A stretch of DNA of 56,660 nucleotides, from positions 1 through 56,660 of the forward strand of contig JAHBVS010000005.1 of assembly GCA_019637445.1 (NCBI GenBank), in the 5' to 3' direction. How positions within the stretch are numbered: position 1 is the stretch's first letter; the number at the start of each line of letters is the position of its first letter. The notes beneath the pieces are model-generated. The model worked only from the letters and a program-made list of their open reading frames with translations, made no database searches and was not told the DNA's origin. The DNA is from Gemmatimonadaceae bacterium (GTDB lineage Bacteria; Gemmatimonadota; Gemmatimonadetes; Gemmatimonadales; Gemmatimonadaceae). Shown in pieces: positions 7,696 through 49,459 of the stretch. Made by a program: the position numbers and the translations under genes.

Positions 7696-9108
7696 CTAGG
7701 GCTTCCGCGGCTGCGCCGTGCGCTTGCCTCCCGACGAGCTGCTGCCGGAGGAACTGGACCCCGAGGCGCCCGACCGCGAGGTGCCGGAGCTCGACGCCGG
7801 CCGTGATTCCGTCGCCGGGCTACGCGGGCGTGACGATGCCGCGTCCCCGCCCCGCGGCTGCGCCGACCCGCGTGGCGTCGTGCCCGATGCAGGCACGTAG
7901 CCGCGTCCCTTCTCCATCCGTCCGCCGCGGTCGTAGCGCGGCGTCACAGTCACGGTCACCGGCTGGTTTGCGTAGCCGTAGCCCCAGGTGCCGTAGCGCA
8001 TCGAGCGGCCCCAGAGGTAACCGCCCCAGAACGCGTGGGAGTCCAGGCAGTTGACCGGATTGATCATCAGACCGGTCACCGGCGAATAGAACGGCATCCC
8101 GTAGAGCGGCCAGGCACGGCGCACGTCCCAGAGCAGCCGGTCGCAGGCGCCACCGCTCCAGGCGGTCGCCGTGCGCGATCCGTACGCGGCATTCGACGCC
8201 TCCGCTACGGCGGCCGCGCTGCGTCGCATCTCCGCCATCACGTCCGCGTTGCTCACGGCGCTCGCACCCTCCGCCGCCAAGGACACTTGGAAGTGCTCGC
8301 GATTCCCCAGCGCCACCACCATATCAATTGTAGAGGCCGGGATTCCCGCCGCCTGCAAGCGCTCCAACTCGCGACGCTTCGCGACCAACGCATACTCGGT
8401 CGGAACGATCGCGGCAGCCAGCCAGGTCTCCACCGCAACAGGCTCGAGCCTCTGCGACATCTCAATCACGTCTGCCGAACTCGGCACACGGCTCGCGTGC
8501 TTGCGCGCGGCGAGCGCCGCGGTTTCGAACGGCGCCAACGCCGATCGCAGCGGCTCAGTAAGGTCATCGAGCGCGAGCCGCGAGGATCGCAGGCTCCGCA
8601 CGGCGGTCCGGTTCCCGGTGCGCACGGCCTGCACCTCGATCCAATCACCGCTGGGACCGAGCGCCATCACGGTGCGAGTGTTCCGGAGCACGCCATCGCC
8701 GCAGTCGAAGCTGCCTTCGACATACACGCGTCGGCCGTCGTCCGACGGACGCCCCACTTCACGGCCCGTGCAGCCGGTCTCCTCGATCGGCATCTCGCGG
8801 CCGTCGGCAAAGAGGCTGGCGCGGCGCTCCATCTGGCCATCCTTGAGCGTCACCAGCTCCACGGCCGCGGCATCCCCGGCCACGGGCAGCACGCAGGTCA
8901 CCGCGGGCAGCGCCGTGCTGCCCTGCTCCGTCTCGCCCACCCAGCATCCATATAGGAAGGCCCAGGGTGCCGTCGAGGAATCCTGCGCCGCCAGCGCGCG
9001 TGGCGCGCCAATCGCGAGGGTCGCGCCGAGCGCCAATGCCGCGCCAAGCGCCGATGTCGTGCCAAGCGCCGATGTCGCGCCGAGGGAGATCGCAAGTCGC
9101 ATCCGCAT
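7696..9108 (-). CDS. Secreted protein of unknown function with repeat-built signal peptide
   Basis: This 470-residue protein is paralogous to the downstream gene over its first 150 residues and shares the cysteine pattern GCW...TCVLP...TGCTG...FDCGDG. The hydrophobic core of its signal peptide is made of hexapeptide repeats (LGATSA, LGTTSA, LGAALA, LGATLA) encoded by an 18-bp tandem repeat. A middle region is rich in tyrosine, tryptophan and glycine (SHAFWGGYLWGRSMRYGTWG), and the end is a Ser/Gly/Arg-rich low-complexity tail. No family is recognised. It starts 16 bp after the barrel protein gene and ends 9 bp before its paralogue, so the three are probably one transcript. The start could be 9108 or the in-frame methionine at 9102. 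Confidence 0.7.
   Translation of the reverse strand: MRMRLAISLGATSALGTTSALGAALALGATLAIGAPRALAAQDSSTAPWAFLYGCWVGETEQGSTALPAVTCVLPVAGDAAAVELVTLKDGQMERRASLFADGREMPIEETGCTGREVGRPSDDGRRVYVEGSFDCGDGVLRNTRTVMALGPSGDWIEVQAVRTGNRTAVRSLRSSRLALDDLTEPLRSALAPFETAALAARKHASRVPSSADVIEMSQRLEPVAVETWLAAAIVPTEYALVAKRRELERLQAAGIPASTIDMVVALGNREHFQVSLAAEGASAVSNADVMAEMRRSAAAVAEASNAAYGSRTATAWSGGACDRLLWDVRRAWPLYGMPFYSPVTGLMINPVNCLDSHAFWGGYLWGRSMRYGTWGYGYANQPVTVTVTPRYDRGGRMEKGRGYVPASGTTPRGSAQPRGGDAASSRPRSPATESRPASSSGTSRSGASGSSSSGSSSSGGKRTAQPRKP
9031..9084 (-). repeat. Three 18-bp tandem repeats inside a signal-peptide coding region
   Basis: Units at 9031-9048, 9049-9066 and 9067-9084 are close copies of CGCCGATGTCGTGCCAAG; a partial unit precedes them. 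Each unit encodes six residues of the signal-peptide core of the 470-residue secreted protein, so copy-number change would lengthen or shorten that core in frame. Confidence 0.8.
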
Positions 9109-18159: not shown

Positions 18160-18639
18160 TTAGGGCGCGCTGCTGTTCCAGATGTTCGCGCGGATCTTGA
18201 ACGCGCCGTCCTCGCGGGCCCAGACGTTCAGGTACTTGCCGCGCTCGACCGTGCTGTCGGAGCCGTAGACCACCTCGTAGTTGCCCTGGTCCACCACTAG
18301 ATCCTCGCCGCCGTAGCAGCTGGTCTGCGACTCCGTGAATGCGTGGATGCCAGCGGCGAGGTAGTCCACCGTAAGCTGGTGCAACGCCTCCGGCCCCACA
18401 GTTGGCGGCGCGCCCGGTGGGAACGACTGCGCGTCGCGCGTGAACATCGCGTCGATGGTCGGGACATCGCCTCGCACGTGCGCGCGGGTGAACACCGCGT
18501 TGGCGCTGTCGATTGCGGCGCAGGTGGCCGCGAGGTCAAAGGAAGCGCGGCGTGCGTCTCCGCAGGCAATCGCCGCGCCGACGCCAACTGCGATGAGCGC
18601 GAACCTGGCGACAGAACGGATGGCTGCTGGGGCCTTCAT
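18160..18639 (-). CDS. SnoaL-like (NTF2-fold) lipoprotein
   Basis: This 159-residue protein has a lipoprotein signal (ALIAVGVGAAIAC, lipid cysteine near residue 26). A domain follows that reads like a SnoaL/DUF4440 polyketide-cyclase-like fold: an N-terminal helix AIDSANAVFTRAHVRGDVPT, IDAMFTRDAQSFPPGAP, and C-terminal strands GNYEVVYGSD and REDGAFKIRANIWNSS. Members are often small ligand-binding or isomerase-like proteins, but most have no known substrate. The frame is open far upstream, but that part is a translated octamer repeat, so the ATG at 18639 is taken as the start. The tandem repeat in its leader begins 12 bp before the start codon. Confidence 0.75.
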   Translation of the reverse strand: MKAPAAIRSVARFALIAVGVGAAIACGDARRASFDLAATCAAIDSANAVFTRAHVRGDVPTIDAMFTRDAQSFPPGAPPTVGPEALHQLTVDYLAAGIHAFTESQTSCYGGEDLVVDQGNYEVVYGSDSTVERGKYLNVWAREDGAFKIRANIWNSSAP

Positions 18640-18650
18640 CGGATGGTCAG

Positions 18651-18730
18651 ACGGTTGGACGGTTGGACGGTTGGACGGTCGGATGGCCGGACGAACCGGC
18701 GGTCCGACGGGCGGACGGGCGGACGGGCGG
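18651..18730. repeat. Octamer tandem repeat array
   Basis: ACGGTTGG occurs three times, followed by the variants ACGGTCGG and ATGGCCGG, a 16-bp degenerate stretch, and then ACGGGCGG three times, all in the same 8-bp register. The array begins 12 bp before the start codon of the SnoaL-like gene and lies in its leader or promoter. Confidence 0.85.
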
Positions 18731-18828
18731 ACGAGAAGAAACGATGTCGAGCGAAATTGTAGTCTCGTAGTCAGTGTGCAAAAGAGCGGGCTGGCGAGCC
18801 GATATATCCTCCCAATCGCGCTTTCGGC

Positions 18829-34849: not shown

Positions 34850-37800
34850 TCATCGCGTCCCCTCAGCCGTCGAGCCCGCGAGTATCGTCCCGACATAGCT
34901 GCCTCCATCCTCTTCCTGAAACACGATATTCCGCCGAAGCATCTCGGCCTTCTTCTTGCCCCACTGCAACTGCATTGTCACCGACGGCGTGTTCGACACG
35001 ATGAACGAATCCAGTCGTACCGCGGAATCGCCGAGCCGCGTCTCGATCTCCTTGACGGTCTCGTGGAACAGGATCTTCGGATCATCCCACGGCAGGTTCC
35101 GGATCCCCTTGGGGTCCACGAAAACAACGCGCTGCTTGCCGCCCTCGATCAACCACAGAATGAAGTCAGGGTGGAAGTTCCCGGCCTCGAAGAACCCCAC
35201 GCCGCGCCCGCGGCTGAGATTCCGCAGCAAATAGAGCTCTCGATCCTTGAAGAATGCGCCGTTCGCGTCGTGGAAAGCCCGCAGGTCTTCCACGAACTGC
35301 CGCTCCCCCCTGTTCAAGGGCGCCGGACTAATCTCCACGATGTTCGTGTCGAGATACAGCAGCGGCTGATACAGGTGCTTCCCGAACCACACCGCCTTCA
35401 TCCCCTTGAACTCCCACGGCTTCATCTCGCCCTTCGCGATCGAGGCCTTCAGTTCCTCGAGCTTGGCTACGATCTCCTCCTGCGACTTGTCGAGCAGTAT
35501 GCGATGGTAGCCATCCTCCGGGGTTTCCTTCACGCCTAGGAAGTTGGGATCGTCGGTCTCCAGGTCTCGATACTCCAAGTGCGGTAGCTCCCAGTCCCGC
35601 TTCCTGAACGTGTAGTACCGCTCCACATACTTGCGCAGAAGCGCCAGCGCGATCTCTTCCCACACGCGCACCTTGTCGAACCCACTGCCCAGCAGCTCGC
35701 TGGGTGGGATCTGCAATCGGTACCAACTGGTGTCCACCAAGAGATCTGCGATGCCGGACCGCGTAATGTTCAGGTTGTACCACCCCCGCTCGGCCTTGAA
35801 ACGCTCCAGTTCGAAGTACAAGCGGTCGACATCCAGAAAGGCCACGTGGCGCGCCGAGAGATGCGTCTCGTGCTTGGCAGCGTCGCCATCTCCGCCGACG
35901 AGCCCCTGCGAACCCAAGGCGCGGATCCTTGGGTACCAGTCGAGCACCAACCGGTTCTCGTGTAACTGCTTGGCCTCCGACGGCCTCGATAGGTCAGGCG
36001 GACGCACCGTGGGTACCGGCGCCAGCTTCCGGAATGCATCGCCGAACTCCGTACTCACGCCGTTGATGGTCTTCTTGAGACGCACCGTCTTGAGCTTCTG
36101 CGTGCCGAGGCTCTTGATGACCGGCAGAAGGAACTCGATGCGCTCCTCATTCGACGGAAGCCCCTCTTCCTTGAGGAAGTCGCGGAACTGGGCCATATAG
36201 TCGGCATGCACGCCGAAGATGCCCAGCGTCTCGAGCACGGCAATGTGCCGAGGCCGCTCGACACCCTGTGGCAGGTCGGTCTTGAGGCTGCGCTTGAGGC
36301 TTATATCGAATCCCTTGAGCCGCACGCCGCGCCCGAAGAGCTGGATGATCTGTGCTCCCTCGCCCTTACCGACGTTCATCAGCCCCATCGTGGACACCCG
36401 CCAACTACTCCAGCCCTCGGTGAACTTCTTGGACCCGATCAACAGGTTTACCGGTGACTCGGACGTGTTGATTCCGTGGAAGAGCGATTCGGAGAACGTG
36501 GGCTCCGCCACACTTAGGCCGTTCTCCTCGCACAACTTGAGCAGCTTCGTATCATCGCCCACGTTGATCACGCCGAATGGCGGGTTCTCAGCGCCCAGCC
36601 GCAGTGCGATCTCGCCGGTCACGCCCTTTAGGTTCTCGACATACAGCTGACCTCCCGCCGAGGCGTGAAATAGCGTCGACAGCGTCTCGTCAAAGATCTG
36701 CGCCGGGGTAAACGAGCAGGTATTCAGGTACTCGAAGCGCCGCGCGAAGATATCCTTCCCGTTGGCACCGATCAGCCCCTCGTGCAGCACGCGCCGGATG
36801 CGCTCTGTGCTGCCGGCACGGTCGGCAACGTAGCGGGCCAGGAACTTGAGGATCTCCACGATGTCCGACGCATCGCGCGTGGCCAGGCCGGCCGTCACAC
36901 TGCCTCCCACGAAGATCCACAGCGGCTTCTCGATGTTGAACGGGCGAAATGCCGCGCCCAGTTCGCGAAACAGTCGCTGCTGCTGATAGAACGTCAGCAA
37001 GCAGGCCGTGAGGTACAGGTCTTGATGCGCCTGCTGGGTCCCCTCGTCGAGGTTTAGGATCTGATAGTCCTTTCCGAACCCGTCCCCGTAGAAGTACTTG
37101 TACGAGTAGTCCACCAGCGTGCTCTTGGCGTAGAGATCGGTGAGCGCCGGGCTCCCTTTGACGGCCTGTCCGAATGTGGCCGAGTATTCGAACGAGAAGC
37201 CTTTCTCGCACAGCTTCTCGCGCCTCTTCATCCAGGTGCCTTCCTTGCCACCGCTGGCGCCGCGGTGTCCCTCGTCCACCAGCACAAGGTTGTTGCCCTC
37301 GAATGCGTCGATGGCTACGGATTTCTCGCCCATCTCGTCGCGTAGGAGCGTGACCTCGAGAACCTCCACCGCCTGCCCGCTGAACAAGCCGCGCCCGTCT
37401 TTGTTGAACAGCTCCGCGGCGATTCCGGCGGCCTCAAACTCGCGAAGGTGCTGCTGCGACAGCCCCTCGTTGGGCGTGAGCAGCAGGATGCGATTGAGCT
37501 CCCGCGATCGTCCGTGCGTGGCGAGCGCGTGCTGGTACTGCAGGATGTTGGCGTGCATCAGCAGTGTCTTGCCACTGCCAGTGGCCATCCAGAATGCCAG
37601 CTTGTTGAGCTGCGGCCACGCCTCGGCGGCTTCATCGAACGGCGTGATCCGGTCGGGTTCCGGTTTGTCGGCGTTGTACGCGGCCACTTGCGCGTTCAGC
37701 GCAGCCAGCAGCGCCTTGGCGTCGGTGAAGTACCGGTCGAGGTAGATCTCCGTAAACAGCAGGCCCAGGTACTGAAAGTACTTCCAGACGATCGGGTCCT

Positions 37801-38146
37801 CGCCGCGCGTGATACGTCGCTCGTTGAGCCGGAGCGTGTGGCGCACGATGTTCTGGTCGTAGCGCAGCAGGTCGTCGGTGCTGAGCTGCGTGAGGTTGAA
37901 GAACTGTGCCGCAATCGCGTGGTGGAACCGGTGGACGTTGTTCTCGTCCAGCCCTTCCATCGCCTCACCCCGCAGGTGCTCGGCCAGCTCCCCGAAGCGC
38001 TTCACGTTGAAGAGCGACAGGATCCACTGGTTGAGGATTAGCTTGTATGGGAACGGGACCTGGGGCTTGGTCGTCGAGCGGCGCGTCCGAGCAGCGGGGG
38101 CCGCCGCGGTCGCCGTGCCCGAGTTGCGAGGGCGTCCTCTCGGCAT
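34850..38146 (-). CDS. Type III restriction-type helicase-nuclease (Res-like)
   Basis: This protein of about 1098 residues combines a superfamily 2 helicase and a nuclease. Walker A is ATGSGKT (GSGKT at 190-194), and motif II is DEGH at 291-294 in [14 protein letters not shown]. Later come the C-terminal RecA-like motifs ([27 protein letters not shown]). Near the C-terminus HPDF (Asp994) and VDPKG (Asp1011, Lys1013) form a PD-(D/E)xK nuclease site. The start at 38146 overlaps the upstream stop codon by 1 bp (TGATG), implying translational coupling to the DUF262 gene. Res normally cleaves DNA with a cognate Mod methyltransferase, which is encoded two genes upstream. Classical Res proteins are somewhat shorter. 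Confidence 0.9.
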
Positions 38147-39942
38147 CAGAGCACCTGGAACCAGCGCTTGATCTTGAGCGCCATCAGTCTGCGCCGCGTC
38201 TCCAGGAAGGAGTCGTAATCGGGGATGCCCTCTCCTAGGAGCGATTCCGGTAAGCAGTGCATCTGGAGGTTCACCCGAAGGTCGTCCTTGCTCGTGATCC
38301 CCCCATACTTCTTCGCTCCGCCATGGCACTGCGCGACCAACTCAGCGAAGTACTGTTCCGGTGACTTGTCGCCTATCGCAATGTTGATCTCGCTCTGCGC
38401 AAGCACGAAGTTGGCGATCTGATTGTACCGGCCGCGGGGGAGGCCCTGCTGCTTCAGGTGATTGCGCGGGTACACGTGGTGCACGTCGCTGCGGTTGAGC
38501 AGCAGGTCCAGCACCGTGATGTCGCGCGAGAGGAAGCCCTTGTCGCCCAGCTTCACCTGTGCCGCCTTGTAGGCGAGGAAGTACGGACTCTGGGCTGACG
38601 ACGTGTCCATCAGCTGCGGAAGCATACCGGTCCAGAAGCTCTCTGGCAGTTCGTTCTCTAGGACAGATGTCGCGTACGGCACCAGTCCACGCGCCTCGAC
38701 CTGACGAATATCGAAGTCAAAGGCCGTCTCGGGACTGCCGGTGTAACGCCCGCGCAGGATTGACATCGCGTACCAGCGCCGTACCAGTTGCTCGAGATCT
38801 GCCGCGGGTACGCCCTCGGCCCGGCCCTTCAGGTATATGATGTACGCAAAGTTCACGGCGTTGCGGCCGCCGATCAGGTCGCTGGTCACGAAGCCAGCCG
38901 AGCGCAGGATCATCGTGATGCGATCGAAGTGCGTCTTGTTGATGAACGCGAGGATGCCCTTCTTCAGCCGCGCGAATGACTGCTCGGCAATCGCTTCCTC
39001 GAACTGCTTGGTCTCGAAGTTTCTGCCGGACAAGAGCGCGACCAAGTCCTGCAGCTTCCCGCGTCCGAACTCCGATGTGAACGCCACGCGCAGCATATCC
39101 GTGTAGGTCGGATCGTAGATGTCGTCGTTGACATCCTTGAGCCAGCGCATCGCGGGCAGGAACTCGGACTGCGCGAACGCCTTGTCACCCTTCTCGACGC
39201 GGGACAGGAACTCCGGCGCCACGGCCAGGTGGCAGAAGTAGTCGATGGCCTTGCGGAGGAGGTTGCCGCCGTACGTCTCGTTGACGGCGATCTTCGACAT
39301 CGCGAAGTCGGCCTGCGAGAGCTCGGTGCCCGCGGAGTTCACGCGGATGAAGATCTCGGTCACCGTCTCGATGTCGAGGTCATCGGCGAGCTCGATCACC
39401 CCAACGTGATTATTGATGGTCTTGCGTAGCTTCTCGATGCTCGCGAAGACTGCGTCCTGCGACACGCCGGGGTTCTTGGCACAGTAACTCGTCACCAACT
39501 GAAAGACGCTGGTGCTGGGTGCGAAGACCTCGGCCACATCCTGGATCCACGCAACATCCTTCCGGATCGCTGGGTTGGCGACCTCGAACCGCTCGTCCTG
39601 TGGGTGGAACGCAATCCGGATACGGACCGTTTCGTAATCCTTGGTTAGGACCTCGCGGCCCAGCAACGCGGCCATCAGAGCGGTGACGCGCTGTTGCCCG
39701 TCAATCAGGATGCGCTTACCCGCCGAGGGGGATCCATCCTTGAGCTTCACGGTAGGGTTTCGCCAAGCGATGAGGTAGCCCACCGGATAGCCCTGATACA
39801 GGGAATCCAGCAGGTTGCGCACCTTGGTGGCTTCCCACACGAACGGCCGCTGAATCTCGGGAATGGCGATCTCGCCCGATTTGACCCAGGTGAGAAGCGT
39901 TTCGATCGCGTGCGGCGTGACTGAGTAGCGCTGCGTAGACAT
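38146..39942 (-). CDS. DUF262 (GmrSD-like) protein with C-terminal HNH motif
   Basis: This 598-residue protein has the DUF262 ParB-like nuclease domain at its N-terminus: [20 protein letters not shown], then [11 protein letters not shown] with DGQQR at 81-85, and [20 protein letters not shown]. The C-terminal half holds an HNH-like site, [10 protein letters not shown] (His488-His489), followed by [19 protein letters not shown]. This two-domain layout is that of GmrSD-type type IV restriction enzymes, which use NTP hydrolysis and cut modified DNA. Its position is remarkable: it is inserted between mod and res with 1-bp overlaps on both sides (TAATG and TGATG), so it is made as a stoichiometric third subunit or a second effector of the same system. 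Confidence 0.88.
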
Positions 39943-42900
39943 TACTGTGCACGCTCCGTCCCCTCGAACATCAGGCGATGGAAGTCCTCCTCGATGAGCC
40001 GCACCTTCCAGCGGTCATCGGGCATCCTGAGGTTCTCCAGGTTGTTGCCGCCGTTCACCCAAATCACGTCGAACTCCGAGTCTTTGGCCGAGTACCCCTG
40101 CTTGGTAAACCACTCGTCGAGCACGAGGTTGTCCTGCTCCACGTCGCCGCTGAGCTTGCGCCAGATCACCAGCGCCTTGCGGCCGTCAGGGGTCGTGCCG
40201 GAGACGGTACGGAACCAGTGTGGACCAGCGGCATCCTTCTTGAGGCGCGCGTCCTTGAGCCGGAGCCGTCCTTCGCCGTCCCTCACGAAGGCCCCGCTGA
40301 ACGATTGCGGTGCCGCGATGTGACGCACGGTCAGGCCGACGAGCCAGTTGAACGTCTCCAATAGGTCAACATTCACCTCACGGCTCTCGTCGGAGCCTGG
40401 GCGCTTGACCTTGAGTCGGTACGCCGTGGGATCGGTGAAGGCTTGCACGTTGAGCAGCGACTGCGAGCCGCGCGTCTCCACGTTCAGCATATAGCGGAGT
40501 ACGTATTGCTCCTTGAGCCCATCCGGGCCGTGGGCCTCAGGCGAGTCGAGCAGGAGCTGCTGGGTGGCGGTGCGGCGCGTCTCGAGGTTGTTGAGCGCGT
40601 CCTCATACGACTCCAGCCGTAGCACCTTGACGATGCGAGGCGCGCGCTCGGACTCCTCAGCGTTGGGGAGGCGCCTCGGCTTGCCGTCCTTCCACTCGGG
40701 GGTGAAAGTGACCTTCTTGATGCGTGGCAGGAGAACGGCGTCGAAGTGGTCTCCCATCTCGACGAGAACAAACTTGCGGCTTCCGCCGTCCTCTCGGTTG
40801 AGGTTAATCAGGGCGTGTGCGGTAGTGCCGGATCCAGCGAAATAGTCGAGAGTGACAGTGCCGCTACCCACGCGCACGACGCGTTCAATCAGCCCCGTCG
40901 GCTTCGGGCTCGTGAATGTTGTATCTGGTAGCAGGTCACGTAGCTGCCGAATGCCATCTTGGTTGTGGCCCACTTCCTCGTGCCTCCAGATTGTTCGGGG
41001 CACTACGTCGCCGACCTCCGAGAGAAAACGCTTGTAGGCGGGAACCGCATTCGTGCCATCGCGGCCCCACCAGACACGGCCTTCCAGCTCGTTGATCTCG
41101 TGCTGTTCGCGCGAGTACGCCCACACGCGAGATCGCTGTGGCCACACGTCTTGGCCTGTGGTCGGGTTCCGAATCGCGTAGAATAAGTTCGGCCGCTCGT
41201 CCGCTGACTTGTTTGACTTGTAGTTGTCAGCCTTCCAGCGACCGCGCGGGTCCTTGTCTGGATTGCTGTACGAGGCATCCTGCGCCTCTGTGCGCGGCAG
41301 CTTTGTCGGCCGCCAGCGCTCGCGTGAGCGCGCGAACGCTACCACGAAATCGTGATCGTCGCTAAACCACTTGGCGTCGTTCGCTGGCGCGTACTTCTTC
41401 TGCCAAATGATGTTGCTCACAAAGTTTTCAGCCCCGAACGCCGAGGAGAGCAGGCTGTAGAGAAGAGCTTGCTCTCCGTCGTCGATGCTAGCGAACAGTG
41501 CTCCGTCGCTAGGGTTGAGGAGCGAGAATGCTGTGTCGGCGCGTTCGATCATCATCGATGCCCAACTCGAGTGCTGATAGCTGTCCTTGTAGGCGAATCC
41601 GTCACCGCCCGTGTTGTAGGGAGGGTCGATGTAGATGCAGGGTATCGTTCCACGGAACAGCGACTGCATCACGGAGAGCGCCTGGAAGTTCTCGCTATGG
41701 AACAGCACGCCGTCCACGTGCGCGTCCACATCGCCGAGCCCGTCCAGCAGCCGCGCAACAAAGTCCGCGTCGAAGTGCCGCGTATCCACCACCATCGACG
41801 GCTGCCCCTTGAGGAACTCCACCGCCAGCGGCACGCTATACGCCGCGGCCACCAGGTCTCCAGCGATCGAATCAATCCCACACAACCGCACCCACTCCTC
41901 ACGCTGCGCTTCGTTCGCCGCGATCTCTGCGTAGAACGTCTCCGGAATCACCCCGAGCCGAACGCACCACGATGTCTCTACCACGAACTTCTTCTTGAGC
42001 CACAGCTTCTTCTGGAAGTCCTCCAGTTGCGCCAGGAAGTCGATGATCTTCCCCGCAATCCGCCGCACTACCTTGATCTTCGACAGATACTGCTCCACAC
42101 GCGGCGCCGTCTCGCTCTCCACATCGTCAAGGTGCATCACCTCGCTCTTGATGTAGAAGTCGAGCTCGCGGCGCAGGAATCCACCCAGGTCCTTGTGGAT
42201 GAAATAGTCGAACGTGTTGCGGTCCGAGTAGCCCTTGAGATGCTTGGCCAACACCGTGCGCTTGGGATCCTTCTCGGTGGGCGCAGGCGCCTGCAACGCC
42301 GCTACCCAGTCAGCGACCGCGGCATCGGTGCTCGCCAGCACCGCTGCTTCGGCCTCGGCGTTGAGCTCGGCCTGCTTCTTCGCATCCGGCTGGTAGGTGA
42401 AGCGCACCACGAGTTCACCATTCTCCACTGCGAGCGGCTGCTCTGCTGCCAGCTTGAAGCGACGATCCTTCCCCTCCGCCACCTTCACATTGCCGTGCTC
42501 CCCCTCGGCGGCGTCCACCAGTCGGAAGTGCACGCGCATCGGCTTCGCCTCGTCATGCGGCCGCAGCTGAAACGCGTAGTCGCGCAGGTATTCGCTGGTC
42601 TTGATGTAGTACTGGTCCTTGTTGGCCCAGTGCAGCGTCACCTCCTCGCCTTCGTACGGAATGGCGTACACCCCCGGCTTGTACACGCGCTTGGCTAGGT
42701 AGTCGCCCTCGGAGTAGTAGCGGCGGAAGAACGAGTACAGGTGGTCATACACCTCGCGCTCGAGCGTCTTCACGTCGACTGCTTCGTTGGCCAGCTTCTT
42801 TCGCAGCTCCTTCACCTTCGGTGAGGCGTCCGGCGTGAGCCCCGCCGCCTCGACGCCGGCAATGACCTTGGCCAGCTCCTTCTCGATCTCCGCCTTGTCC

Positions 42901-43079
42901 GCTGACTGGTACTGCGCGAAGGCCTGCTGCACGTGCGGCAACAGGTCCTCATCGAGGAACTTGGTGACTTCGGCGCTCTTGGCGTGCATAACGCGGTAGA
43001 GGCCGAAGTCCAGGTCCGGCTGGTCGAGCTGGAAGAGCTCCTGCAGCAGGGTCTTCAGCTTGGTGTACTGCTGGGTCAT
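39942..43079 (-). CDS. Type III-like adenine-specific DNA methyltransferase (Mod)
   Basis: This 1045-residue protein carries the beta-class order of motifs: DPPY at 485-488 ([20 protein letters not shown], motif IV) and, 260 residues later, FAGSGTT at 747-753 ([19 protein letters not shown], motif I). The target-recognition region should lie between them. It is much longer than classical type III Mod (about 600-650); an N-terminal arm of about 450 residues, partly helical ([20 protein letters not shown]), precedes the catalytic core. It is the first gene of the coupled set Mod-DUF262-Res and starts 31 bp after the AAA/DUF4143 gene. It should methylate adenine in a short asymmetric site and protect host DNA; the site is not predictable. 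Confidence 0.92.
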
Positions 43080-43110
43080 CGGTCGTCCCGTCGGTCAGTG
43101 ATCCAAGGTA

Positions 43111-44361
43111 TCATTGCGTCAGTTCCCAGAGCGCACGGATGGGCACCGCATAGAGGCCGTCGCCGAAGCTCACGCTGGCCTCGCCGTCGTACAGCACCAC
43201 GCCACCTGCAAACCGCTTGCCCAGCGCCGTCTGCAGCTTGCGGATTCCCCGGAAGTCGGAGGCGGTGACTGTCGCGGACGCCTTGACCTCCACTGCGGCC
43301 AGCGCGCGCGCGCCCTGCTCGATCACGAGGTCCACCTCCACTCCGTCCTTGTCGCGCAGGTGGTGGAAGCGCAGGTCGTCATCCCGCCAACTGGCCTGAC
43401 GCCGAAGTTCCTGCACCACGAAGGTCTCCAGCAGCTGTCCCAGGGTGCCGCGGTCCTCCGACAGTGCGGCTTCGTCGAGCCCCAGCAGCGCGCAGGCCAC
43501 GCCGGTATCGGTGACGTGGAGCTTGGGCGTCTTGATGAGGCGACTCAGCCTGTTGCTGTGCCAGGGCGGCAGCTCTTCAAGCAGGAAGATGCGCTCCAAC
43601 AGCGTCACGTAGTCCCGGATGGTTGGCCGGCTCAACTGAAAGGGCGCCGCGAGGTCACTCACGTTGAGGAGGTGCGCGGTCTGTCCGGCCGCCAGCGTGA
43701 GCAACCGCGGGAGAGCGTCCAGCGACGCAATCCGAGCCAGGTCGCGCACGTCGCGCTGCACCAGCGTCTCCACGTAGTCGCGGTACCAGGTCGCCCGCCG
43801 CTGCGCCGAGCTGCGGGCGAGCGCGGTTGGAAAACCACCGGACACGATGCGCCGCCCGAGCTCCTTGCCCAACCGAGCGTAGGGGCGCGCCTTGAAGCCA
43901 CCTCCGAACAGGGCGTCGAGGAACGCGGGCTTCGCTCTTGCCAGCTCGCTCTGCGCCAGCGGGTGCAGGCGCAGGATCTCCATCCGTCCGGCGAGCGAGT
44001 CGGAGAGCGTGGGTAGCAGCAGTACGTTGGCCGAGCCCGTGAGCAGGAATCGGCCCGGTCGCCGGTCGCGGTCCACCGCGCGCTTGAGGGCGGTGAAGAG
44101 CGCAGGCGCGCGCTGGACCTCGTCCAGGATCGCGCGCTCGGGTAGGTCGCCCACAAAGCCTACCGGGTCGGTGGTCGCCGCCTCCAGCGTGACCGCATCG
44201 TCAAAGCTGAAGTAGCCGTAGCCGTGCGCGTCCCCTGCCGCTTGGGCGAGGGTCGTCTTGCCGCACTGCCGAGGCCCGTGGATCAGCACCACCGGCGACT
44301 CGGCTAGTGCCTGTTCGAGCAGTGGCGTCGCGAACCGCGGATACGGAGGGATGGGTGCCAT
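43111..44361 (-). CDS. AAA ATPase with DUF4143 domain
   Basis: This protein of about 416 residues has an AAA_14 ATPase domain with Walker A GPRQCGKTT near residue 30, Walker B-type AILDEVQRAP and sensor LLTGSANVLL. A C-terminal DUF4143 domain follows (LLNVSDLAAPFQLSRPTIRD, LLERIFLLEELPPWHSN) and a restriction-nuclease-like tail (KDGVEVDLVIEQGARALAAV, EVKASATVTASDF). The D-x-n-ExK-like signature VDLVIEQ...VEVKAS suggests a PD-(D/E)xK fold. The ATG at 44361 is used as start rather than the TTG at 44370. Four 23-bp direct repeats lie immediately upstream. Such ATPases are widespread and mobile and their function is unresolved; it may be a passenger in the defence cluster or part of it. Confidence 0.85.
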   Translation of the reverse strand: MAPIPPYPRFATPLLEQALAESPVVLIHGPRQCGKTTLAQAAGDAHGYGYFSFDDAVTLEAATTDPVGFVGDLPERAILDEVQRAPALFTALKRAVDRDRRPGRFLLTGSANVLLLPTLSDSLAGRMEILRLHPLAQSELARAKPAFLDALFGGGFKARPYARLGKELGRRIVSGGFPTALARSSAQRRATWYRDYVETLVQRDVRDLARIASLDALPRLLTLAAGQTAHLLNVSDLAAPFQLSRPTIRDYVTLLERIFLLEELPPWHSNRLSRLIKTPKLHVTDTGVACALLGLDEAALSEDRGTLGQLLETFVVQELRRQASWRDDDLRFHHLRDKDGVEVDLVIEQGARALAAVEVKASATVTASDFRGIRKLQTALGKRFAGGVVLYDGEASVSFGDGLYAVPIRALWELTQ

Positions 44362-44363
44362 TA

Positions 44364-44455
44364 CGGCCAAATGTAAGCTTCGGTGGCGGCCATATGCAAT
44401 CTAGATTAGCGGCCGATTGCAATGTTAGATGGCGGCCATATGAAAAGCACCTCGA
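44364..44455. repeat. Four 23-bp direct repeats upstream of the DUF4143 ATPase
   Basis: CGGCC recurs at 44364, 44387, 44410 and 44433, exactly 23 bp apart. The units share CGGCC(A/G)(A/T)(A/T)TGNAA and, in the two central copies, a TTAGAT/TAGATTA tail. The array starts 3 bp before the ATG of the ATPase gene and ends 40 bp from the SNF2 gene. The repeat length equals the period, so there are no spacers. Iteron-like binding sites or an autoregulatory operator are likely. Confidence 0.8.
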
Positions 44456-44494
44456 CTCGGAAGCCCGGCGCCTCCGGGCGCTGCGGAGTCACCG

Positions 44495-47386
44495 TCACAC
44501 CACCGTCCATCGGACCGAGAACAGCGTCTCGGTCTCGGCGCGCTGCGCCAACCGACGCTCCAATTCGTCAATCAACCGGTCGCGCTTTTCGAACACTTCG
44601 TCCTCGGCGGCGAAGATCTCCTGCCGCTGCTTGCGCTGCTGGCGTTCCAGCTTCTGGATGCGCTCCTGGACGGCGTGCTGCTCGGCCAAGGTCACCGCCT
44701 GCCGCGCTTCGCGACGCAGCGCCTTGATCTGCTCCTTGGTGTCGTGCAGCGCCTTCTCGGCCGAATGCACCAGGTCCTCGGCCCAGCGTTCCAGCTTCTC
44801 GCGCGCCGCCTGAAAGTGCGCGTTATTCTGCTCCAGCGAGCGACTGACCGTGGCCTGCGCGTGACGCTCCGCTTCGCGCGCCAGTTGGCCCTGCGCTGCG
44901 GACGGCAGCACGTGCGGTGCGGCCGTGCCGCCCAGTCCGAACAGCTTCTCCATTGTCTCCTGATCGAGGGCGACGCCCGCATCGTCGAAGCCGGAGAAGA
45001 GCAGATACTCCTCGCGTTCGTAGGAGTCCACGGCGAGGCGCGTGAGCGTGAGGTAGCCGGAACGCCCGCGCAGGGATTCAGCCGCAGCGATGCGTGTCGG
45101 GTGAGCCGAGCTGTCGAAGGTGAGGTGTGCGCTCGGTGTGAGTAGCCCCTTGGCGCTCTCGATTACGTGTTCGCCCAGCGGGTGCGAGAGTCGGTAGAGG
45201 AAGCGGCTCGCCTCCTCGCCGCTGGCGTCGCCATCGCTGGCGCGCGGGTGTGTCTTGGAGATCAGGTGGTAGCGACCCGTGGCGATGTGGTCGTCTGGGG
45301 CGCGGTACAGGTCGAAGGCCAAGGCCGCATCGTCAAAGCTGGCGGCCTCGTGCAGCATCCAGCGGGTGAGCGCCCAGAAGCGCTGGCCCACGCGATCTAG
45401 CTGTGCCTGCGCGTCCGCTAGTTGCACGCGCAGCCGTTGGTGAACGTCCTCGTCGAAGTGTTCGAGCAAGGCGCGGCGGGTGTCGTCGAGGCGCGCGCGG
45501 ATCTGTTCGTCTAGCTCATCCTGAAGCGCCTTGAACGCCGCGTCAATCTCAGCCGGCGTGCGGCACTCTTGGTAGATGGCCAGAATGCGCTGCTCAAAGT
45601 CCACGCCGCTGTCGATGCTGCCGAGAACGTCGTCAGAGGCGCCGAAAACGCCGCTGAAGAGGGAGAACTTCTCCGTCAGCAGCTCGAGTACTCGCTTGTC
45701 GGCAGCATTGCGCTCGTTGAGGAAGTTCACAACCACGACGTCATGCCGCTGGCCGTAGCGATGGCAGCGTCCAATGCGCTGTTCGATGCGCTGCGGATTC
45801 CACGGTAGGTCATAGTTGACCACTAGGGAGCAGAACTGCACGTTGATGCCCTCGGCCGCCGCTTCGGTGGCCAGCAGGATCGTGGCGTGGTCGCGGAAGT
45901 GCTCGACGAGTGCGGTACGGAGCTCCACCGCCTTCGACCCCGAAATCCTCCCGGAATCGCGATTGGCCTCGAGCCATCGCTGGTAAATCGCCGTCGCTTC
46001 GGGCCCACCATTGGTCCCGTTGAACACGACCACCTGGCCCGCATACCCGTGGGTCTCGAGGAACTGCTTGAGGTAGTCCTGCGTGCGCCGTGACTCTGTG
46101 AAGATGAGAGCCCGTCGCGCGGCGCCCGTCTTCGCCATCTCCGCAAGTCCAACGTCGAGCGCGGTGAGGAGTGCCGCAGACTTGCTGTCCTCGCCGATGC
46201 GCCTCGCACGGTCCGCTAGGCGGCGCAGAATCTCTATCTCTTCGCGAAGCTGCTGTCGATTGATGGGCACCGAGGACTCGGTTTCCAAGCCGGCCGCGTC
46301 CTCGTTCGCGAGGATCTCGTCCAGAAGGTCCTCTTCGAGTTCCTCGGACTCGATGAGTCGCTCCGTGAACTCGGGGTCGTTACCGACCCGTTCGTCGCGC
46401 AGCGACTCCAGGCGCTTCCGCAGAGCATCAAGGGTGCCGGCAATCGCCTGTGAGGAAGAGGCCAGCAGCTTGCGCAAGATGAGCGCCGTAAGGTGGCGCT
46501 GACGATGGGGAAGCGCATAGCTGTCCTCACGCTGCAGGAACTCCGAGACAGCTTCGTACAATGCGTGCTCGTCGTCAGTCGGCTGGAAAGGTCGTGTGAG
46601 CGGACGCCTTTCCGTGTAGCGAACGTACTCGGTAACCTGATTCCGCAGAGTGCGCTTGCAGAACGTTGCCAGCCGCGTGCGGAGCGCATCTAGATTGCTG
46701 CCGGCGCTCGCGTAAAGCGACCGGAACGCATTGACGTCGCCGAACAGTGTGTCGTCGATGAGCGTCGACAGGCCGTAGAGCTCGAGAAGCGAGTTCTGCA
46801 GCGGCGTGGCGGTGAGTAAGAGCTTTCGGCAACCCTCCGTCGCCCACCGTATCCCCTGACCCACCTTGTTGCTCGGACGGAAGGCATTCCGGAGCTTGTG
46901 AGCCTCGTCGATGACAACCAGGTCCCATGCCACACCTCGCAGCTCATCCCGAAACGCGTGCGCAAAATGGTATGACATCACTTGGATCGCACCGGATGCG
47001 AACGGGTCGTGGCCGGCCCGGCGCGCTTCGCGAAGCGACTTAGCGTCGAGCACCAGTACCGGCAGTTTGAACTTCTCGCCGAGCTCCAGCGCCCACTGCT
47101 TCCGAATCGCAGCTGGAGCGATCACCAGGAGCCGGCGCTTGCGCTCGGCCCACAGTTGGCAGAGCACAATGCCCGCCTCGACTGTCTTGCCGAGGCCGAC
47201 TTCGTCAGCGAGGATCACGCCCTTCGAGAGGGGGGAGTGCAGGGCGAATAGGGCGGCCTCGATCTGATGCGGATTGAGGTCAACTGCTGCGTCGAACAGC
47301 GCTGAGGAGAGGCGGTCGATGCCTCCGGCGGCCCGCCGAGTCAGGTCGTGGGCGTAATACTTGGCGTGGTGAGCGGAGAGAGACAT
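44495..47386 (-). CDS. SNF2/RapA-like helicase of the defence island
   Basis: This protein of about 963 residues is a superfamily 2 DNA translocase of the SNF2 class. It has GLGKT at 64-68 within ILADEVGLGKTVEAGIVL, DEAH at 160-163 (LVVIDEAHKLRN), LLLTATPLQNS (motif III) and, in the second lobe, LIFTESRRTQDYL, LLATEAAAEGINVQFCSLVV and QRIGRCHRYGQ (motifs V-VI). The C-terminal 250 residues are a charged coiled coil (AVQERIQKLERQQRKQRQEI). Such helicases are encoded next to methyltransferases and Res-like proteins in several restriction clusters. It is separated from the downstream ATPase gene by 133 bp containing the 23-bp repeats. The start is the ATG at 47386 rather than the adjacent TTG. 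Confidence 0.92.
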   Translation of the reverse strand: MSLSAHHAKYYAHDLTRRAAGGIDRLSSALFDAAVDLNPHQIEAALFALHSPLSKGVILADEVGLGKTVEAGIVLCQLWAERKRRLLVIAPAAIRKQWALELGEKFKLPVLVLDAKSLREARRAGHDPFASGAIQVMSYHFAHAFRDELRGVAWDLVVIDEAHKLRNAFRPSNKVGQGIRWATEGCRKLLLTATPLQNSLLELYGLSTLIDDTLFGDVNAFRSLYASAGSNLDALRTRLATFCKRTLRNQVTEYVRYTERRPLTRPFQPTDDEHALYEAVSEFLQREDSYALPHRQRHLTALILRKLLASSSQAIAGTLDALRKRLESLRDERVGNDPEFTERLIESEELEEDLLDEILANEDAAGLETESSVPINRQQLREEIEILRRLADRARRIGEDSKSAALLTALDVGLAEMAKTGAARRALIFTESRRTQDYLKQFLETHGYAGQVVVFNGTNGGPEATAIYQRWLEANRDSGRISGSKAVELRTALVEHFRDHATILLATEAAAEGINVQFCSLVVNYDLPWNPQRIEQRIGRCHRYGQRHDVVVVNFLNERNAADKRVLELLTEKFSLFSGVFGASDDVLGSIDSGVDFEQRILAIYQECRTPAEIDAAFKALQDELDEQIRARLDDTRRALLEHFDEDVHQRLRVQLADAQAQLDRVGQRFWALTRWMLHEAASFDDAALAFDLYRAPDDHIATGRYHLISKTHPRASDGDASGEEASRFLYRLSHPLGEHVIESAKGLLTPSAHLTFDSSAHPTRIAAAESLRGRSGYLTLTRLAVDSYEREEYLLFSGFDDAGVALDQETMEKLFGLGGTAAPHVLPSAAQGQLAREAERHAQATVSRSLEQNNAHFQAAREKLERWAEDLVHSAEKALHDTKEQIKALRREARQAVTLAEQHAVQERIQKLERQQRKQRQEIFAAEDEVFEKRDRLIDELERRLAQRAETETLFSVRWTVV

Positions 47387-47576
47387 CAACTCGTCGTGTG
47401 CGGTGCTCGGCGTTCATCGGTGGCGCGCCGTTGGGCGGCCGGGCGCACGCAGCAGTTGTCTTGAATGCAAATGCAAGCAGAAGTGCCGGGCCGGTAGCAC
47501 TGGCGCATCCCTCCTAGCCTAGGGCGCCAGACGCTCACCCAATCATTCTCGGCGCAACGATTCGCCGCGAGCCTCG

Positions 47577-48230
47577 TTAGGCTGTCCAAAGAGCGGCGGA
47601 AGGCAACAGCACAGCAACAAACGCACGCACGCAAGCTGAGAACTCTGCATTCTTCTCCTGCATCTTCCTTAGCTCGTCGAGCCTAACTGGCGTCAACGGA
47701 TCAGCGTCGTTGGCGGATAGGTCGATCAATGCGCGCGCGCGTGCGAGCACGTCCAGCTTCTGCTGAATCAGAGCGGGGCGGTCATACAAGTGTAACTCGA
47801 GCTTCCGGACCGAGAACTCAGCGCTGGCCGCACCAATCCGCCACGTAACCAGTGGTCCGCAGTGTACGACATCCTCCTCCACCGCGTGGAGATATGGGTC
47901 TATGAACGGCAGCTCGTCGCTGTGGTAGTCAGACTTGCGCCGATTGCACTCAGTGCAGGCGACCGTAAGGTTGTCCCAGACAAACCGCAACTCCTGGAAC
48001 TTGCTTGCAGGCTTCTTGTGCTCCACGTCCCCAGGCGTGTTGTGGCCGATTCTGCTCTCACAGAACACGCACTTCCATCCGGTCTCCTCGCGAAGGGCAG
48101 CGCGCACGTCATCGTGCCGATAGCGCTTGCGCTTCGTTTCGTTCGTCGGGTCTGCAAGGTACTCCTGGAGCCACCTCGCTCCGTTCTCGACTAGCACTGT
48201 CGGCTCGGCACCTTTTTCATGACGCCTCAT
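47577..48230 (-). CDS. HNH endonuclease (PtuB-like) of a Septu-type pair
   Basis: This 217-residue protein has an HNH domain framed by two zinc knuckles: Cys54-x2-Cys57 (WKCVFCESRIG), DVEHKKPASKF with Glu70-His71, WDNLTVACTECNRRKSDYH with Asn87, Cys92 and Cys95. This is the arrangement of PtuB in Septu defence systems. The C-terminal third is helical. It is encoded directly after the ATPase gene with a 4-bp overlap (ATGA), so both proteins are made together. The target is expected to be DNA or RNA of an invader; cleavage chemistry is inferred from the HNH motif. Confidence 0.82.
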   Translation of the reverse strand: MRRHEKGAEPTVLVENGARWLQEYLADPTNETKRKRYRHDDVRAALREETGWKCVFCESRIGHNTPGDVEHKKPASKFQELRFVWDNLTVACTECNRRKSDYHSDELPFIDPYLHAVEEDVVHCGPLVTWRIGAASAEFSVRKLELHLYDRPALIQQKLDVLARARALIDLSANDADPLTPVRLDELRKMQEKNAEFSACVRAFVAVLLPSAALWTA

Positions 48231-49459
48231 GAGAGCGAGCTCTCGCCTCGAAGAGGAGCCTGGACGAGGTAATCTCCGAAAGCCGATTCAAGCCCTTCTT
48301 CGCGCAGTCGCTCACGGAGCTCCGAGATGGCATCCGCGTCAAATGAGCGATCTGCGAACCCGGACAAGAGCTGCTTGATTCGTGCCTCAACCCACAAAGG
48401 CATCACGACGGGAACGTCCAATACATCACGAAGCAAGCGCTGCGGCGAACCCGCCAGATCCGTGTGCTCAAGCCGACGTGACGTGACGCGTTGGTTAGTC
48501 CCGAACAAGAGACCGTAGACTGCTGCAACTGGCGACGATGCCACTACGAACGGGCTGTGTGTTGCAACGACAAACCGGTGGTCAGGAAATGCGTCGAGCA
48601 GTCGCGGCAGAAACTCGCGTTGCATGCTCGGGTGCAGATGATTCTCAGGCTCATCCAACAGCACCGTGCACGTTCGGCCACCGATTGCGTGCATATGAAT
48701 CTGCCAGGCAATGCCAAAGATGGCATTGAGGCCTCCTGACATTGACTCCAGAGGGAAGCGCCCCGTGCGTGTGCGAAGCAGGACCTCTGGAGTATCGATC
48801 TCAATCCGTTCAAAGCCGAGATGCTGTGGGAGAAGCTTGCCGAGGATGCTCTCGAAGCCGCGAAGGATACCCTCGTACTCCTGGTTCGCACTTACTGACG
48901 AGTTGCCCTCTCCAAAGACCGCGAAGCCAATTAATGCCTCCTTCATTGCAACGGATGGGTTTCGTCTAGGCGACTCCCCGTAAGACTGAAAGAGGAAGTT
49001 CTGGTAGGCTTGGAAGTGCTGCTCAGATGTTTTCGGGTCAATCGGAATGTTTTGCAGGCGCGCGTAACCGGGAGGAGGGCGATGCGACGGAATGTGGATG
49101 CCGGCGACGGGCCGCTGATTATCGAGTTGAATATTGGTCTGTGTGGAATCTGCGACCGGAGCGACGATGCGAGCTTGGTGTCCTTCTGAGTATCCAAGGG
49201 TTCCGATGGGCACACCGCTGATTTCCGGCTGCTCTTCGGCATCCCACGCGTCTGAGTATCGCCGACGCTGGCGTTTTGACGTGAGCGGCGACGAGAGGAA
49301 CTGCTGATTCCATCCGAAATGGCGCCCGAGCAAACTCAAAAGCGTCGTCTTACCGCAACCGTTGGGGCCCGTTAGCACCACAAGGCGGTCAGACAGATCT
49401 AGCGCGACGCTTTCGAACTGGCGCCAGCGACTGAGTTTCAGATGTGTGAAGTAGGTCAT
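48227..49459 (-). CDS. ABC-type AAA ATPase (PtuA-like) of a Septu-type pair
   Basis: This 410-residue protein is an ABC/SMC-type ATPase without membrane segments. It has Walker A GPNGCGKTT at 31-39, a signature-like MSGGLNAIFGIAW, Walker B TVLLDEPENHLHP and the H-loop VATHSPFVV. The N-terminus LKLSRWRQFESVALDLSDRL is the OLD/RecF-like first strand. It lacks a TOPRIM domain, so it is closer to PtuA than to OLD nucleases. It opens a two-gene unit with the HNH gene. Septu pairs restrict phages; PtuA is thought to control the nuclease by nucleotide binding. About 220 bp upstream hold no supported gene. Local GC is lower than in the core genes. Confidence 0.82.
   Translation of the reverse strand: MTYFTHLKLSRWRQFESVALDLSDRLVVLTGPNGCGKTTLLSLLGRHFGWNQQFLSSPLTSKRQRRRYSDAWDAEEQPEISGVPIGTLGYSEGHQARIVAPVADSTQTNIQLDNQRPVAGIHIPSHRPPPGYARLQNIPIDPKTSEQHFQAYQNFLFQSYGESPRRNPSVAMKEALIGFAVFGEGNSSVSANQEYEGILRGFESILGKLLPQHLGFERIEIDTPEVLLRTRTGRFPLESMSGGLNAIFGIAWQIHMHAIGGRTCTVLLDEPENHLHPSMQREFLPRLLDAFPDHRFVVATHSPFVVASSPVAAVYGLLFGTNQRVTSRRLEHTDLAGSPQRLLRDVLDVPVVMPLWVEARIKQLLSGFADRSFDADAISELRERLREEGLESAFGDYLVQAPLRGESSLS

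Follow-up and report, generated by a model that had tools for sequence, protein, structure and literature searches.

Tandem 23-bp repeats in front of a DUF4143 (PDC-S01) ATPase gene as a candidate autoregulatory operator

Introduction

What is the function of four tandem 23-bp repeats that stand directly in front of a DUF4143 ATPase gene, and which protein reads them? The question is raised by the 56,660-nucleotide stretch of Gemmatimonadaceae DNA analysed here (the window), in which the motif CGGCC recurs at exact 23-bp steps, at 44364, 44387, 44410 and 44433, with the coordinates and period that a preliminary description of the locus had reported. That description offered three possible roles for the array: a binding site of the ATPase itself, an autoregulatory operator, or a mobility mark of the gene family.

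PDC-S01, a candidate single-gene defence system, is described as a fusion of an ATPase with a PD-(D/E)XK domain and is reported to be the fourth most common prokaryotic defence, with nearly 40,000 detected copies; most PDC candidates still await validation (PMC12988326). The window protein is a clear member of PADLOC PDC-S01 / AAA_14-DUF4143. A literature search that covered few subscription journals found neither an operator, promoter or DNA-binding property of the DUF4143/PDC-S01 family, nor DUF4143 repeats or their autoregulation, nor a mode of action for any PDC-S01 member.

We hypothesise that the repeats form an array of cognate operators by which the DUF4143 protein, with its ATPase, helix-turn-helix (HTH) and nuclease parts, represses its own promoter, and we consider this reading probable.

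The DUF4143 gene and its protein

The gene lies in a defence island on the minus strand (34850-49459), which holds a PtuA/PtuB (Septu-like) pair, a DrmD-like SNF2 helicase, the DUF4143 ATPase, a type III Mod, a GmrSD_N/DUF262 protein and a type III Res. The features of the locus are:

43111-44361, minus strand: DUF4143 ATPase gene, 416 amino acids, with AAA_14 and DUF4143 (PADLOC candidate defence protein PDC-S01; PDLC04790, 563 bits)
43279-43344, minus strand: PD-(D/E)XK-like nuclease motif GVEVD...VEVK, residues 340-361
43588-43671, minus strand: winged helix-turn-helix (wHTH), residues 231-258, with the recognition helix SRPTIRDYVTLLER; proposed to read the repeats
44254-44277, minus strand: Walker A motif GPRQCGKT, residues 29-36
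44362-44494, minus strand: 133-bp intergenic gap that separates the SNF2 helicase and DUF4143 genes, with the putative operator array and predicted promoter of a probably leaderless mRNA
44364-44376, minus strand: repeat core 1, promoter-proximal, TTACATTTGGCCG, with the -10-like hexamer TACATT (44375-44370), 8 nt before the ATG
44387-44399, minus strand: repeat core 2, TTGCATATGGCCG, whose first hexamer TTGCAT (44399-44394), 18 bp upstream of the -10-like element, is a weak -35 with a role suggested by its spacing
44410-44422, minus strand: repeat core 3, TTGCAATCGGCCG
44433-44445, minus strand: repeat core 4, promoter-distal, TTTCATATGGCCG
44495-47389, minus strand: SNF2 helicase gene

The Pfam scores of the protein lie over the curated cut-offs, at 159 bits for DUF4143 (cut-off 28.1) and 90 bits for AAA_14 (cut-off 27). 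A Walker B motif, LDE, occupies residues 79-81, and across 39 homologues the ATPase-motif residues G34, K35, T37, D80 and E81 and the nuclease-motif residues E342, D344 and K360 are invariant, with E358 conserved in at least 90%. An AF2 model of the protein (pLDDT 78, with residues 102-130 below 50) comprises an ATPase domain, a wHTH at about residues 231-265, built from helices 234-237 and 245-257 and a strand at 261-264, and a C-terminal restriction-endonuclease-like domain. Using Foldseek, the HTH matched structures that include MarR- and ArsR-type repressors, and the C-terminus matched Can2/McrC nucleases. Over the ATPase and wHTH together, the best VIA-align matches were the STAND-type archaeal ATPases SSO1545 (2fna) and PABY2304 (2qen), with Z-scores of 7.6 and 7.4, rmsd values of 5.9 and 6.6 over 232 and 237 residues, and 15-16% identity; these Z-scores are middling, and what they support is the assignment of domains in the model. 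A PDB sequence search returned generic AAA matches only.

Geometry and significance of the array

Over 44364-44455 the identity at lag 23 is 40 of 69, a value reached by none of 20,000 shuffles, and none of 2,000 shuffles gave an equal identity at any lag from 12 to 46, the shuffles preserving single-base rather than dinucleotide composition. Chance or low complexity was rejected as the origin of the array. Tandem Repeats Finder (TRF) likewise recovers the array, with period 23, at 44386-44442. Two details of the preliminary description need to be amended, since the conserved span runs from 44364 to 44445 rather than to 44455, and the gap between the array and the gene start (ATG 44361-44359) is 2 bp and not 3 bp. 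Its geometric proposal needs adjustment as well: a unit of 23 bp makes 2.2 helical turns, which at 10.5 bp per turn rotates neighbouring units by about 70 degrees, and they do not lie strictly on one face of the DNA.

The functional strand of the array is the minus strand, on which the core reads TTnCAWWTGGCCG and the order is TTTCATATGGCCG - TTGCAATCGGCCG - TTGCATATGGCCG - TTACATTTGGCCG - TA - ATG. A position weight matrix was built from 293 units of other genomes, with the window excluded, and used to scan both strands of the window; the four best sites were precisely the four units (19.6, 19.2, 16.8 and 16.0 bits; next site 12.2 bits). The pattern of two adjacent units occurs a single time in the whole 3.35-Mb genome. 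A CRISPR-like array was also considered and rejected, as the units consist of 13-17 conserved plus about 6 free bases, no cas gene was found among the scanned genes, and inverted repeats take the place of the array in other clades.

The window holds other repeats as well. Its top-scoring tandem repeat lies at 9004-9081 and consists of 18-bp units in 4.3 copies, CGCGCCAAGCGCCGATGT, and at 18639-18733 there are twelve degenerate 8-bp units, TCGGACGG.

The array is conserved with the gene

Aligning the upstream regions of homologues, which the preliminary description had put forward as a check, gave a strongly positive outcome, with one shared motif and period in 90 of 90 close homologues and clade-specific repeats in distant ones. 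The outcome that the description had named as refuting, a lack of repeats in front of homologues, was not seen. The 23-bp array was found in none of 283 control genes, these being other genes of the homologue loci. In a collection with one genome per species, the nearest 80 homologues, at 67-82% identity, all carry it upstream of the gene. The close homologues come from more than ten phyla, with labels that include Proteobacteria, Acidobacteria, Nitrospirae, Chloroflexi, Gemmatimonadaceae, Omnitrophota, Planctomycetota, Myxococcales, Bipolaricaulota, Uhrbacteria, Kapaibacterium, Sumerlaeota, Eisenbacteria and Acidimicrobiia, among others, and their genomes are isolates and metagenome-assembled genomes (MAGs), with metagenome assemblies in the majority.

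In total, 88 non-redundant genes carry 297 units, at least two each, and the clade unit can be written AANNTTNC(A/G)(A/T)T(T/C)(G/A)G(C/A)CG, with about 6 free bases after it; the core of the main clade condenses to TTnCAWTTRGMCG. Spacing is tightly held, at 23 bp in 188 of 209 intervals, 22 bp in 18 and 24 bp in 3. A pair score, from a matrix trained on the very clade that was scored, exceeded its threshold in 90 of 90 clade genes, as against 0 of 283 controls, 0 of 105 distant DUF4143 genes and 1 of 10 genes of a sibling clade. Searched for in 40 homologue genomes, the two-unit pattern turned out to be almost restricted to the DUF4143 gene, and a reversed control pattern gave no occurrence. 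Strong motif hits fall within 150 bp upstream of the gene in 257 of 272 cases, with 2 within 200 bp downstream, and no neighbour gene is conserved among open reading frames of at least 100 amino acids, the commonest neighbour family being present in 4 of 80 loci. As the motif is concentrated on the upstream side of the gene and the neighbours are not constant, array and gene form one unit.

A scan of 2.9 million viral contigs gave eight matches to the 23-bp repeat pair of the main clade (L242-L249), none beside a DUF4143 gene, and the idea that the repeats are a common mark of viral invaders was dropped on this result. The eight matches are near a rough chance estimate for 18 fixed bases, and two of them (L244 and L249) fit the fine consensus.

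Two loci bear on the island itself. A betaproteobacterial MAG (L003) shares the order SNF2-DUF4143-Mod with the window at 74-82% identity, and a Blastomonas plasmid (L272) has SNF2-Mod-Res without a DUF4143 gene, and the ATPase with its array therefore looks like an optional insert of the island.

The gene-nearest units overlap promoter-like elements

Within the clade, A stands at the third core position in 66 of 88 promoter-proximal units, as against 3 of the 88 penultimate ones, and its presence there creates TACAnT, a -10-like hexamer 6-8 nt before the ATG. Several clade members without this A in the last unit (for example L016, L025 and L034) have a TATACT-like element at the same place. 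At a distance of 18 bp on the upstream side of the -10-like element, the penultimate unit supplies TTGCAT or TTTCAA, which would serve as a weak -35; its weakness is indicated by a strict sigma-70 consensus scan that calls no promoter at the window array. Of the clade genes, 87% have the pattern TANNNT ending 5-8 nt before the ATG, compared with 4% of controls, and a Shine-Dalgarno-like sequence is present in 0% versus 16%; the control percentages are rough, control start codons having been assigned mechanically. As the elements predict transcription from the position of the start codon, the DUF4143 mRNA is probably leaderless, with a predicted start at or beside the ATG. Such a transcript would be suited to a gene that passes from phylum to phylum.

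Which protein reads the repeats

A Pfam DUF4143 search finds at least 20 paralogues in one genome. Of 187 pairs of paralogues, each pair taken from within a genome, 2.7% have repeats that are alike. Repeat similarity instead tracks protein similarity, and among protein pairs of more than 60% identity the repeats are alike in 52-95%. The unlike repeats of paralogues and the alike repeats of close proteins are not explained by a host-wide common factor and fit a reader encoded by the gene.

A blind scan along the protein compared pairs matched for overall identity, and pairs with alike operators peaked in excess identity at residues 231-258, the wHTH, in four overlapping scan windows. The excess is modest (0.05 versus a median of 0.003) and the pairs are not independent; in a rank-correlation version of the scan, residues 327-342 came slightly above the HTH (0.071 versus 0.064). 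The covariation is thus supporting and not decisive as evidence that the HTH would be the reader. Individual pairings are plain on inspection: the recognition helix QGNTTTLAHYLELL, found in two phyla, is always paired with GAGTAA repeats, and the recognition helix GISQPTAKAWLS with GGCTGATTCAA inverted repeats. The gene's own protein most likely reads the repeats.

Different repeats in distant branches

Distant members of the family were collected by Pfam DUF4143 searches in three phyla, in further regions and in plasmid records, and many of them carry other repeats where the main clade has its 23-bp array. With periods from 12 to 61 bp scanned, direct repeats (p<=0.01) were found in 27 of 112 distant genes versus 7 of 283 controls. 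The periods in the distant genes are 22 (6 genes), 23 (6), 32 (12), 33 (2) and 46 bp (1), whereas those of the controls are scattered. This preference for two or three helical turns, with the half-turn values empty, is expected if proteins on adjacent DNA sites touch one another.

In one score band, 24 of 49 genes carry inverted repeats, compared with 3% of controls; an example is GGCTGATTCAA...TTGAATYAGCC. In the branch concerned (L082-L092 and L146), the half-site TTGAATYAGCC resembles the main-clade TTGCAATCAGCCG with one base fewer, and direct and inverted operators may, to judge from this resemblance, derive from one half-site. Among single loci, a Chloroflexota DUF4143 gene (L163) has an upstream palindrome, GAATTAGCGCTAATTC, that recurs at 32 bp, and the start of an archaeal one on a Methanomethylovorans plasmid (L276) is preceded by the 32-bp direct repeat TAGATTATRATCG, from which the rule of a repeat before the gene may extend to Archaea. 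The direct and inverted repeat scans found no significant repeats in roughly half of the distant genes of two score bands; misplaced start codons, position within an operon or true absence may account for these. Most branches of DUF4143 / PDC-S01 seem to carry their own version of the repeat.

Proposed mechanism and alternatives

Among the roles first suggested for the array, that of binding site and autoregulatory operator of the ATPase is best supported, by the covariation of repeats with their cognate proteins, the predicted wHTH and the overlap with the predicted promoter. In the mechanism we propose, each 23-bp unit (AANNTTNCAWTTRGMCG plus about 6 free bases) would be a site for the DUF4143 wHTH, and the two units nearest the gene would overlap the -35 and -10, with the transcript starting at or near the ATG. 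Once enough protein is present, neighbouring sites would be filled through cooperative contact across two helical turns, or three in other branches, and the filled array would cover the promoter, turn the gene off and keep the level of the ATPase-nuclease low. Departure of the protein from the array, for instance when it engages its trigger, would then release expression. The one feature that points to repression over activation is the overlap with the promoter.

If the protein were instead to act from the distal units as an activator of its own promoter, the array would be a positive-feedback or timing element, comparable to the C proteins of restriction-modification systems at moderate level; such C-protein loops are known in the control of restriction genes. 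The distal units do lie upstream of the -35-like element, in the usual place for an activator, and a -35 that the strict scan passes over is in keeping with this, but the -10 itself lies inside the conserved proximal unit, the nine genes with two units retain just the pair that overlaps the promoter, and in the inverted-repeat clades too the operator lies near a -10-like element, so that we regard activation as quite unlikely. Also unlikely, in our estimation, is that regulation is secondary and the ATPase-nuclease uses the repeats as a working site outside transcription, either for its loading or licensing or as a sensor of DNA copy number, replication or invader DNA. The AAA and PD-(D/E)XK-type motifs of the protein would suit such a role, and phased arrays recall the iterons of replication initiators and Orc1, an Orc1-DNA complex being a weak fold match (Z 5.1). 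Laboratory strains of Thermus thermophilus carry DUF4143 genes on pTT27. When a plasmid is present in the Ago-positive strain of T. thermophilus HB27, the DUF4143 gene TT_P0211 rises 6.6-fold (PMC4406477), an RNA result that speaks for a working site and is compatible with regulated expression. Against a working site, the array keeps its place at the promoter, always equally far from the ATG, and the few viral matches lie away from DUF4143 genes.

Host regulators often bind repeats near promoters, and a different cell factor might in principle occupy these; we consider this very unlikely given one motif across more than ten phyla, unlike motifs inside one cell, and an array that travels without a conserved adjacent gene. 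Least probable of all is the mobility mark of the preliminary description, in which the repeats would be a signal for insertion or transposition. The gene is indeed widely transferred and found on plasmids (411 plasmid records), but the repeats stand on a single side of it, as the upstream and downstream counts given above show, their spacing is locked to the start codon with no flanking copy, and a Pfam scan finds no transposase-like domain.

Relation to known systems

The iterons of plasmid replication initiators, for example the 22-bp iterons of R6K, are tandem direct repeats associated with autorepression. The resemblance of the array to iterons would extend to the period of about two turns, to reading by the wHTH of the nearby gene's product, to a half-site used in both direct and inverted form, and to autorepression. 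The locus differs from them in that it has neither a Rep protein nor an origin (a Pfam scan finds no replication-initiator domain in the gene or its neighbours), the gene is often chromosomal, and the protein proposed to read the array belongs to AAA_14-DUF4143. Autorepressed toxin-antitoxin operons and C-protein restriction operons appear similar in their self-regulating promoters, repeated sites and defence context, whereas here there is a single gene without a conserved partner, and regulator and putative effector would be one polypeptide. A type II toxin-antitoxin partner gene is not conserved at the 80 neighbour loci, where the cut-off of 100 amino acids leaves a very small partner possible. 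For the STAND-type ATPases SSO1545 and PABY2304, the best fold matches of the window protein, we know of no upstream repeats. Autoregulatory operator arrays are a known kind of element; a private operator for each DUF4143 branch, whether of two- or three-turn direct repeats or inverted, was not found in the literature searched.

Implications for the DUF4143 family

More tentatively, and with considerable doubt, the autoregulatory reading may be extended to the whole DUF4143/PDC-S01 family, which is among the commonest candidate defence families in bacteria and archaea and whose members would then be self-contained orthogonal switches. Each would have a private address for its own HTH, either an inverted repeat or direct repeats with a step of two or three turns, together with a leaderless promoter that is independent of the host, and the array would serve also as a sensor whose emptying frees the nuclease, so that about twenty such switches could operate in a cell without cross-talk.

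The repeats offer a mechanistic handle on the family, in that they give a predicted DNA target for each DUF4143 protein. They also provide a large natural set of pairs of HTH helix and DNA site, of use for a recognition code and for orthogonal repressors, and they suggest why at least 20 paralogues can share one genome.
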